NCBI GenBank assembly: GCA_030684575.1
Contig: JAUXVD010000017.1
Coordinates: 1-37,576 of the forward strand
Direction of reading: 5' to 3'
Length of the DNA: 37,576 nucleotides
From: Nitrospirota bacterium
Lineage (GTDB): Bacteria; Nitrospirota; Nitrospiria; Nitrospirales; Nitrospiraceae
Position numbers and translations under genes: made by a program. Below are positions 8,579-37,576 of the stretch, in pieces; position 1 is the first letter of the stretch, and every line of letters begins with the position of its first letter. The notes beneath the pieces were generated by a model. It ran no database searches. It had not been told where the DNA came from and saw only the letters and a list, made by a program, of their open reading frames with translations.

Positions 8579-8585
8579 GTTTAGT

Positions 8586-8783
8586 AGGATGCTGAAAAAG
8601 ACCGCCAGCGGCGTTCTCGCTTCACGGAAAGGCTGAACGTACCACAAGGGTACGCCTCGGTTCTTTGCTCGCTGCGGCCTTGCTGAGCGGCCTTGTTGAG
8701 CATCCTGAAGCGATTGGAGTTTCTATGCATGCGAAACATGTGAGCGGTACGTTTTTCTTTCACAGAGTTTTCCGCAGCCTGTT
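8586..8783. repeat. Dispersed palindromic repeat, copy A
   Basis: An imperfect palindrome of 121 bp (8586-8706) is bounded by AGGATGCT and AGCATCCT. It contains CGCCAGCGGCGTTCTCGCTT and TCGCTGCGGCCTTGCTG, also found in copy B (24877). A variable stretch of ~62 bp and then GTTTTCCGCAGCCTG (8767-8781) follow, as in copy B. It lies between two minus-strand genes. The family looks like a non-autonomous mobile or REP/BIME-like element. Confidence 0.85.
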
Positions 8784-8856
8784 GGATAACCTGTGTGAGC
8801 GCCGCAGCCTACACGAAGGGCCAGGATTCTCGCAAGACCCAATGGGAGGTGACGCG

Positions 8857-8935
8857 TCGTTCGTGATGCGTGAAGCGTTTCCGGGATTGAACGAGATACG
8901 AATGACGAGTGACGAACGACGGGTTCTAGAGTTGG
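8857..8935. repeat. Degenerate GTGACGA-type intergenic sequence
   Basis: The stretch is built of short imperfect repeats (GTGACGCGTCG, GTGATGCGTGAAGCG, ATGACGAGTGACGAACGACG). It runs from just past copy A of the palindrome into the 3' end of the cupredoxin gene. Similar wording occurs before rluB (20997-21074). Confidence 0.5.
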
Positions 8936-12597: not shown

Positions 12598-13443
12598 ATG
12601 GAGGCTTGCTCCTCTCCCCCCAAAGCTGGTATAAGTCCGCTTGTGGATAACCACTCAGACGACACAGAACAAACCGAACTGCCCTATCAGGTTCACATCG
12701 AGAACTTTGAGGGGCCTCTCGATCTCCTGCTCCATCTGATTAAGAAGAGCGAGATCAATATCTATGACATTCCCATCCACCTGATTGCCCAGCAATACCT
12801 CACCTATATTGAGGCGATGGAAGACCTCAATCTGACGGTTGCAGGGGAGTTTCTCGTCATGGCGGCGACCCTGATTCAGATTAAATCCAAGATGCTGCTT
12901 CCGGTCGATGAGACGGTGGTTGACGAGGAAGATGGGCCAGATCCCCGTGAGGAATTGGTGCGGCGCTTGCTCGAGTATAAACAGTTCAAAGAGGCCGCCA
13001 ATCAGTTGGATGAGCACGAGCGGTTGTGGCGGGAAATCTATAGCCGTGAACAGAGCCCGACGGTCGAATTGAAGTCGGATGAGTCGCTGATGGTCGATGT
13101 CAGCTTGTTCGATCTCGTGGATGCGTTGCAGGAGATTTTGAATCGCAATCCCGGCAAGACCTTCATGGATATCCTGCCAGATAATTTGACGGTTCGAGAT
13201 CGGATGAATTCGATTTTAGAAATGTTGGAAGGGCAGGAATCGGTAAATTTCATCGACCTCTTTGAACCGTCCTGTCATCGGCTGGTGATCATCGTCACAT
13301 TTTTGGCCCTGCTGGAGCTGATGAAGCTTCGAACGGCCCGGATATTCCAGGCGGAGCATTTTGGACCGATCCTCGTGTCTCGCGCCTTTTCACTCGTGCC
13401 AGATCCGGCAGAATTAGATGATGCTGAATGGAGGGGAGCATGA
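12598..13443 (+). CDS. scpA: Segregation and condensation protein A
   Basis: ScpA is the kleisin subunit that bridges SMC heads in the bacterial condensin complex. The 281-aa product shows the N-terminal SMC-neck-binding region (HIENFEGPLDLLLHLIKKSE, about 33-52), the conserved LVMAATLIQIKSKMLLP (about 87-103), a variable middle that binds ScpB, and a C-terminal winged helix (VIIVTFLALLELMKLRTARI). The start is uncertain: the ATG at 12598 has no SD, and a GTG at 12643 would give a shorter N-terminus closer to the usual family length. It overlaps scpB by 4 bp. It begins 33 bp after the pentapeptide gene and may be co-transcribed with it. Confidence 0.95.
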   Translation: MEACSSPPKAGISPLVDNHSDDTEQTELPYQVHIENFEGPLDLLLHLIKKSEINIYDIPIHLIAQQYLTYIEAMEDLNLTVAGEFLVMAATLIQIKSKMLLPVDETVVDEEDGPDPREELVRRLLEYKQFKEAANQLDEHERLWREIYSREQSPTVELKSDESLMVDVSLFDLVDALQEILNRNPGKTFMDILPDNLTVRDRMNSILEMLEGQESVNFIDLFEPSCHRLVIIVTFLALLELMKLRTARIFQAEHFGPILVSRAFSLVPDPAELDDAEWRGA

Positions 13444-14297
13444 GCTCAACCGTGGAGCAGGAAACAGACGACGTGATTCCGACAGAGAACGAGCTGGTTT
13501 TAGAGGTTGTCGAGGTGCGAGAGCCGGAAGCTGAGCCGCAGGAGGCCGGCGTCGAGTCGATGAGCAGCCAGCCAGAGGCTATCGACGCGCGAGAACTCAA
13601 AGCCATTCTAGAGGCGGTCTTGTTCGTGTCGCCCGAACCGGTGCCGGTGGCACGGCTGATGTCGATCCTAGGGTCAGTTTCGAAAGCCGAAGTGGTTCAT
13701 GCGTTGGATACGCTCACGTATGACTTGGATCAGGAAGGGCGCGGCATTCAGCTGGTGCAGGTTGCGGGTGGGTATCGGCTGGTGACGAAGCAGGAGTATG
13801 GGCCCTGGTTGAAGCGGATGGATAAAGCCAAAACGGCGCAAAAGCTCTCCCGCTCCGCGCTCGAATCCCTGGCCATTATCGCATATAAGCAGCCGCTCGT
13901 ACGGTCCGAGATCGAAGAGATTCGTGGCGTGGAAACGTCCGGCGTGTTGCGCACCCTGTGCGAGCGCAAGCTGGTGCGGATCGTCGGACGAAAAGAGGTG
14001 CCAGGCCGGCCCATCATGTACGGCACCACCAAGTTCTTCCTTGAGCATTTCGGGTTACAAGACTTGACCCAGCTTCCGCCGTTGCGTGAGTTCAAAGAAT
14101 TGGGCGAGTCCGAGCAGGCACTCCTGCCGATTGAGCACGAGTCTCTGTTATCAGTCGAGACGTCAGAGCCGTCCTATTCCGAAGACCTTCCTGTCACGAG
14201 TGATCTTATGGAAGGTGAGGCGGTATTGGCCTTTGATGTGGAGACCGACGAGACGGTACTTGAAGCGTCGGTCGAAGAGCCGGTCGAGCAGGCGTAA
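13440..14297 (+). CDS. scpB: Segregation and condensation protein B
   Basis: ScpB dimers bind the kleisin ScpA and regulate the SMC ATPase during chromosome segregation. The ATG at 13440 overlaps the scpA stop (ATGA) and has GGAGG six bases upstream, so it is preferred over the ATG at 13428. The 285-aa product has an acidic N-terminal extension (about 1-45), the first winged helix (LKAILEAVLFVSPEPVPVAR onward) and the second with the family signature IAYKQPLVRSEIEEIRGVE. It ends in an unusually long acidic tail (about 200-285, rich in Glu and Ser) that most ScpB proteins lack. ATGA overlap implies translational coupling. Confidence 0.95.
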   Translation: MSSTVEQETDDVIPTENELVLEVVEVREPEAEPQEAGVESMSSQPEAIDARELKAILEAVLFVSPEPVPVARLMSILGSVSKAEVVHALDTLTYDLDQEGRGIQLVQVAGGYRLVTKQEYGPWLKRMDKAKTAQKLSRSALESLAIIAYKQPLVRSEIEEIRGVETSGVLRTLCERKLVRIVGRKEVPGRPIMYGTTKFFLEHFGLQDLTQLPPLREFKELGESEQALLPIEHESLLSVETSEPSYSEDLPVTSDLMEGEAVLAFDVETDETVLEASVEEPVEQA

Positions 14298-14345
14298 CAG
14301 GCTGCTCGAAAATTCCGCCAGCGTCTTGTTCGCGTGCGAAGCGCG
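14298..14345. repeat. Dispersed palindromic repeat, partial copy D
   Basis: CAGGCTGCTCGAAAATTCCG and CCAGCGTCTTGTTCGCG match the left third of copies A and B with several changes. The rest of the element is missing. It starts at the scpB stop codon. The remaining gene-free stretch to 14641 shows short GTGATCA/CGTGACT-like words near 14360-14410 and a promoter candidate. Confidence 0.55.
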
Positions 14346-17623: not shown

Positions 17624-17645
17624 GCGCCGCTACAAGGATTGCTGG

Positions 17646-17810
17646 CAGGTTGCGAGATGCTCAACATGGCCGTCCGGCAAGACCGCAGCGAGTAAAGAAG
17701 CGAGCCGTACCCTTAAGATACGTTGGGGTTTGAGCGATGCGACCGGCCTGCGCGAAGCCGCGTCGGCGAAGGCAGAGAACGACTCCGGCAAGCTTTTTCA
17801 GCATTCCGCC
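17646..17810. repeat. Dispersed palindromic repeat, diverged copy C (inverted)
   Basis: Read on the plus strand this is the reverse orientation of copies A and B: AGATGCTCAACATGGCCGTC near the left end and AAGCTTTTTCAGCATTCCGC at the right end. The interior is longer (165 bp in all) and heavily changed. It fills the gap between the NHL gene and guaB, ending 14 bp before the guaB start and abutting its SD. Confidence 0.65.
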
Positions 17811-17815
17811 AGTGA

Positions 17816-24780: not shown

Positions 24781-24876
24781 AGCGTTTCTTCCACGAATAA
24801 GACATCCACTGCGAAGATCAATCCGGACCCTGCCGAAGCGTAATCTTGGTATGCATACATATTCCCTGTCTCCAGC

Positions 24877-25075
24877 AGGATGCTGAAAAAGTCCACCAGC
24901 GGCGTTCTCGCTTCACGAAGAGGCTCAACGTACCAACCAGTACGCCTCGCCTCTTCGCTCGCTGCGGCCTTGCTGGACGGCCTTTTTGAGCATCCTGTGG
25001 TTGTTCTGGTCGCGGTGCCACTCCGAGTATCTTGGCCATTCTTTCGCGTGCACCGAGCTTTTCCGCAGCCTGCTA
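24877..25075. repeat. Dispersed palindromic repeat, copy B
   Basis: The 120-bp palindrome (24877-24996) is bounded by CAGGATGCT/AGCATCCTG and holds inner pairs such as CGAAGAGGC/GCCTCTTCG around an ACGTACC..GTACG centre. About 61 variable bases and then GCTTTTCCGCAGCCTGCTAG (25057-25076) follow, the same plan as copy A. The element fills most of the aroC-rnhA gap; the rest (24781-24876) shows nothing recognisable. Confidence 0.9.

Positions 25076-36506: not shown

Positions 36507-37576
<1,070 letters not shown>

Follow-up and report, generated by a model that had tools for sequence, protein, structure and literature searches.

What is the palindrome that recurs between the genes of this Nitrospirota contig, how has it spread, and what accounts for its position? 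The stretch analyzed (37,576 nucleotides, here called the window) contains four copies. The preliminary description proposed two good copies of a common plan (A and B), a diverged inverted copy (C) and a fragment (D), all between genes, and suggested a genome-wide Nitrospira family of the REP/BIME or MITE type, with a conserved far end implying a unit larger than the hairpin. The family is new and of the MITE kind, with unusual biology that includes stop-codon sites, covariation and hairpin exchange. Its members are very probably non-autonomous DNA transposons of about 198 bp, mobilized in trans by an IS5-family (DUF772 + DDE, IS1182-like) transposase. The features of the window are as follows.

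8581–8584, + strand: left target duplication of copy A, TTAG
8585–8781, + strand: copy A, complete 197-bp putative MITE (hairpin 8585–8707, right terminal repeat 8768–8781)
8782–8785, + strand: right target duplication of copy A, TTGG, one change from TTAG
14298–14345, + strand: copy D, decayed left end (CAGGCTGCTCGAAAATTCCGCCAGCG...)
17642–17645 and 17809–17812, + strand: mutated duplication of copy C, CTGG / CCAG
17646–17808, − strand: copy C, diverged inverted copy
24872–24875, + strand: left target duplication of copy B, CCAG (CTAG at the empty site of relatives)
24876–25072, + strand: copy B, complete 197-bp putative MITE, with a precise empty site in relatives
24876–24997, + strand: 122-nt hairpin of copy B, beginning with the 15-nt left terminal repeat, CAGGATGCTGAAAAA
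25059–25072, + strand: right terminal repeat of copy B, TTTTCCGCAGCCTG, reverse complement of the IS end CAGGCTGCGGAAAA
25073–25076, + strand: right target duplication of copy B, CTAG

Overall structure of the element

In copies with a recognizable right end, the unit is mostly 197–202 bp long and carries no transposase gene, so the larger unit implied by the far end proved real. The left terminal repeat, CAGGATGCTGAAAAA, forms one arm of a hairpin of about 120 nt, while the right terminal repeat is TTTTTCCGCAGCCTG. The conserved far end, TTTTCCGCAGCCTG, is this right terminal repeat; in copies printed with their flanks, its reverse complement, CAGGCTGCGGAAAA, is close to the left end, CAGGATGCTGAAAA. 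The two ends are thus terminal inverted repeats, with 13/15 positions equal between CAGGATGCTGAAAAA and CAGGCTGCGGAAAAA, a property that the preliminary description had missed.

A 4-mer of the form YTAR, likewise unnoticed before, flanks both ends of the element. Among 55 full-length copies of relatives, the left and right 4-mers are exactly equal in 37, compared with 18.2 in shuffled pairs (0/20000 as high), and the exact pairs include the rare CTAC, CTAT and TTAA. Insertion favors T-CTAG-A. Restricted to the window's own genome, the duplication signal is moderate (p 0.005–0.02), owing to the age of the copies. That genome also contains a second MITE subfamily, which ends in GTTGACAAA.

Copies A and B, about 88–90% alike, score 129.6 and 145.1 bits (E 7.8e-34 and 4.2e-38) with a covariance model built from 32 hairpins, these two being among the training copies. 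Copy C scores 42.5–52.7 bits and has its own right end, the right terminal repeat (CAACCTG on the − strand) following directly after the hairpin. Copy D is a left-end remnant of roughly 36–50 nt that starts directly after the stop codon TAA (14295–14297) of the gene at 13428–14297; over its initial 35 nt it agrees with copy A at 74%, and it was not recovered by the family model. The two good copies, the diverged inverted copy and the fragment all stand as described before.

A second dispersed imperfect palindrome (CGTCGTTCGTGA.GCGTGAAGCGT ... GACGAACGACG) lies between genes at 8852–8924 of the window. It recurs elsewhere in the genome, at C12:122612 (L103), C22:52296–52349 (L139), C14:11376 (L104) and C8:338252 (L069), in places adjoining the first family.

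Distribution of the family

The window's own genome (G000; 3.79 Mb searched, 23 contigs) contains at least 150 hairpin copies detectable with the covariance model, with E-values mostly under 1e-20 and no weaker than 1e-10; copy B as a BLAST query gives at least 40 matches. This number is far beyond chance and the copies are not parts of duplicated genes, the explanation that would have been fatal to a repeat family. Copies in the own genome were read with their surroundings in 95 stretches, and those examined are intergenic. The model matches 60 of the 61 genomes searched in the order Nitrospirales, and each of the 32 genomes of the same genus gives at least 39 matches. The family is therefore genome-wide, as first supposed, and reaches across the genus Nitrospira.

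In a pattern scan of a collection of species genomes, the matches listed come from Nitrospirota records only, N. moscoviensis and N. lenta included, save one contig labelled Geobacter. That contig (L412) carries the exact family core and is either misbinned or the product of a transfer. Searches of plasmids and phages gave no meaningful matches to the repeat family. No Rfam family exceeds its gathering score for the repeat; the sole Rfam match within the window is a 16S rRNA gene at 36507–37576, which runs off the window end.

Empty sites and orthologous insertions

For ten copies, the two flanks were fused and used as queries against the genus. For copy B, at least seven relatives give an uninterrupted match, of which six were aligned. 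The site reads CCTGTCC-CTAG-GGTAACATG in relative G017 (93–95% identical), with a single CTAG, and CCTGTCT-CCAG-(197 bp)-CTAG-GGTAACATG in the window. Copy B is a precise insertion, and the relatives keep the uninterrupted site. The second-subfamily copy at C14:15178 is also absent from G017, where one CTAG is again found. Three relatives (G017, G009 and G002) carry copy A at the corresponding position, and the copy appears to be absent from its site in G021.

Relationship to insertion sequences

The genomes of relatives contain insertion sequences (ISs) of about 1.25–1.32 kb with CAGGCTGCGGAAAAAC at both ends and YTAR duplications, which are CTAG/CTAG or TTAG/TTAG at L266, L268, L272 and L358. 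The last of these is a partner IS within the same genus and adjoins a MITE copy. The 16-nt ends of the partner IS are identical to the right end of the MITE, whose left end is identical at 13/15 positions. The partner transposase (L265) contains DUF772 and DDE domains and scores 277 bits, against a cut-off of 140, with the NCBIfam IS5 model NF033581 (transpos_IS5_4). IS5-group elements are known for duplicating YTAR targets. The ends of another IS group, CAGGCTGTTGACAAAC, are closely similar to those of the second MITE subfamily.

The own genome contains no DDE_Tnp_1 transposase above the cut-off and no relative of the partner transposases, so the autonomous elements with common ends that had been looked for were found in relatives only. 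Since the own genome carries no such IS, its copies are non-autonomous, and mobilization in trans is suggested by the ends held in common with the partner IS, which is absent from this genome. An IS5-family transposase would move the unit of about 198 bp in trans and insert it at YTAR, with duplication of 4 bp.

The preliminary description had left the choice between REP/BIME and MITE undecided, and only the latter holds. Spread of REP/BIME-type hairpins on single-stranded DNA by a RAYT (Y1) transposase would agree with a hairpin of high copy number in intergenic positions, with the TAG-like tetranucleotide 5′ of its stem, and with the single Y1 transposase of the genome. It is nonetheless very improbable in view of the 4-bp target duplication and precise empty sites, the ends shared with DDE-type ISs, and a unit much larger than a REP. 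The only Y1_Tnp gene (C8:620812; L051 1465–2301) has no copies within 1.5 kb, nor anywhere in its 3.3-kb locus. We therefore rejected this origin on the duplication in 37/55 full-length copies and the lack of copies flanking the Y1 gene. The Y1/RAYT-like transposase itself is a protein of 278 aa with a C-terminal extension, encoded in an Rhs-like region.

Placement at stop codons

Stop codons were called by a simple ORF test that required an ORF of at least 100 codons. Among the 150 copies listed from the own genome, 56 have a long ORF that is closed by the TAG or TAA of the left duplication, and in a further 21 the ORF is terminated by a TGA of the element itself (CTA GCA GGA TGC TGA). As a control, other upstream stop triplets close ORFs in 3–9% of cases, or 16% within the 50 nt nearest the element. 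The element starts within 11 nt of an ORF stop in 107 of the 150. The left triplet is also a stop in 21/39 copies from other genomes and in 34/89 named Nitrospirota copies; in N. moscoviensis one copy comes after a TAG stop. In relatives, 28/65 full-length insertions lie at stops, compared with 58/551 intergenic YTAR sites (p 1.6e-11), an approximate comparison as the 551 sites were taken from the own genome.

The target is thus often the stop codon of a gene (C-TAG or Y-TAA), with the hairpin beginning 1 nt after the stop. As the stop is part of the sequence that is duplicated, the gene is left intact. TAG stops are common in the own-genome stretches read (64 of 205 recognized stops away from copies), and this may increase the number of potential CTAG targets.

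The orientation of the copies differs between the own genome and its relatives. In the own genome the stop lies on the hairpin side of 58 copies and on the opposite side of at most 11, whereas full-length copies of relatives have the stop on the left in 14 and on the right in 14 (Fisher p 0.0015). Between tandem gene pairs of the own genome, 62 copies point in the direction of the genes and 20 against it. Retention between two species shows no excess at stops: 15 of the 24 occupied sites are stop-proximal, compared with 10 of the 13 that are not occupied (p 0.48). Stop-proximal hairpins in the own genome are not more stable than others.

Covariation and exchange of the hairpin

The hairpin keeps its pairing through two-sided changes, with strong compensatory covariation: 21 of 36 stem pairs are changed on both sides, compared with 6.9 in shuffles (0/500 as high) and 4–7 in slid controls. 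Conservation extends to largely unpaired blocks around CGTTCTCG and CTGCGGCC. Stronger conservation of the hairpin than of the rest after insertion is not supported overall (p 0.14 over 19 ortholog pairs).

Among the sampled sites, 30 were located in G017, and 19 of these carry a copy. Hairpin identity at the 19 is split, 8 being at 92–98% and about 8 at 71–79%. At the low-identity sites the flanks are about 90% identical, and most of these sites have an inner hairpin that belongs to a different sequence type. The copy at C19:30982 agrees with the young B type over about 55 inner nucleotides, while its right part and right flank are 97–100% identical to two orthologs. The hairpin body has been exchanged at about 8 of the 19 orthologous sites, most likely by gene conversion between copies, which would swap the body type at fixed sites.

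Variant hairpins with about 65 nt extra occur at C19:85118, C19:190963 and C8:645904 (model span 205 nt), and a related insert of the GGCGCGCC...GGGTTGGGCGGGTGA type is found in the 3′ arm of other copies and in G017. Solo hairpins were considered as independent mobile units and rejected; the YTAR-like excess directly after the hairpin is weak (13/130) and could be explained by pairing at the stem foot.

Possible role at transcript 3′ ends

The position, orientation and structure of the hairpin make it plausible that it serves as a terminator or as the 3′ end of transcripts. Copies may persist because a hairpin at the end of a gene is harmless, or because it is useful as a transcript 3′ end (a terminator or RNA-stabilizing structure). 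On the fullest version, which we put forward tentatively, at less than even odds, the transposon would be a mobile 3′-end module that favors stops, keeps them intact and installs standard, exchangeable hairpins as the transcript ends of many genes across the Nitrospirales. Another account of the stop-codon rule stands close to even: purifying selection alone, in which insertions within genes disappear and TAG and TAA stops are the safest YTAR sites, with no 3′-end function. The equal numbers of stops on the left and right in full-length copies of relatives agree with it, as does the negative retention test. It must contend with the excess of relatives' insertions at stops over intergenic YTAR sites, and the left-sided bias in the own genome is not explained by safety alone.

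The covariation has a competing explanation of its own, in which an imperfect palindrome is corrected by template switching, and this process, not selection on pairing, yields the paired changes. It has a substantial chance of being right, though less than even: two-sided changes are seen also at one orthologous locus (AGGATG/CATCCT vs AGAATG/CATTCT), and between orthologs the conservation of the hairpin is not clearly above that of the flanks. Such correction would not, however, maintain the conserved, largely unpaired blocks. Those invariant blocks, the covariation, the differing body types at orthologous sites, the tight position at 3′ gene ends and the prevailing sense orientation could all be expected of a conserved regulatory RNA or terminator family spread mainly by recombination, its transposon ends being incidental. 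We consider such a family improbable, as whole 198-bp units insert with duplications, their right ends equal IS ends, and Rfam offers no match. A trans-mobilized MITE remains the preferred reading of the element itself.

Implications and comparison with known systems

The family is an abundant repeat of ecologically important nitrifiers. Its stop-codon rule offers a simple route by which a transposon could reach high copy number without harm to genes, and perhaps a source of ready-made structures for gene ends. Exchange among short repeats can be measured directly from the hairpin bodies that differ at fixed sites. A search of literature available without subscription found neither a description of the family nor a stop-codon rule for MITEs.

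The closest known systems are ISs of the IS5 family (NF033581, near NF033551 of IS1182), whose 16-nt ends equal the right end of the MITE and which make the same YTAR duplication. Unlike them, the MITE lacks a transposase gene, and its left end, equal at 13/15 positions, forms part of a long hairpin. REPs are not known to make a target duplication. REP/BIME elements resemble the family as abundant intergenic palindromes near gene ends, but their unit is 20–40 nt, whereas the Nitrospira element is 197–202 bp long, has a target duplication and is not linked to a RAYT.

The target duplications of Correia elements, RUP and SPRITE differ from the YTAR of the Nitrospira MITE. Their hosts are also other than Nitrospirales. 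They are short repeated elements, some of which are mobilized by ISs or are terminator-like, reviewed in an article that does not mention stop codons (PMC10969869). The same review, citing Chen 2008, describes the Chunjie MITE of Geobacter uraniireducens as an intergenic element of 178–235 bp with terminal and direct repeats and dozens of partial copies (PMC10969869). Set beside this summary description only, the Nitrospira MITE is similar in size, intergenic sites, terminal repeats and direct repeats, and, as far as that summary goes, differs in its copy number of at least 150 per genome, its order-wide distribution, a hairpin at one end only and its placement at stop codons.
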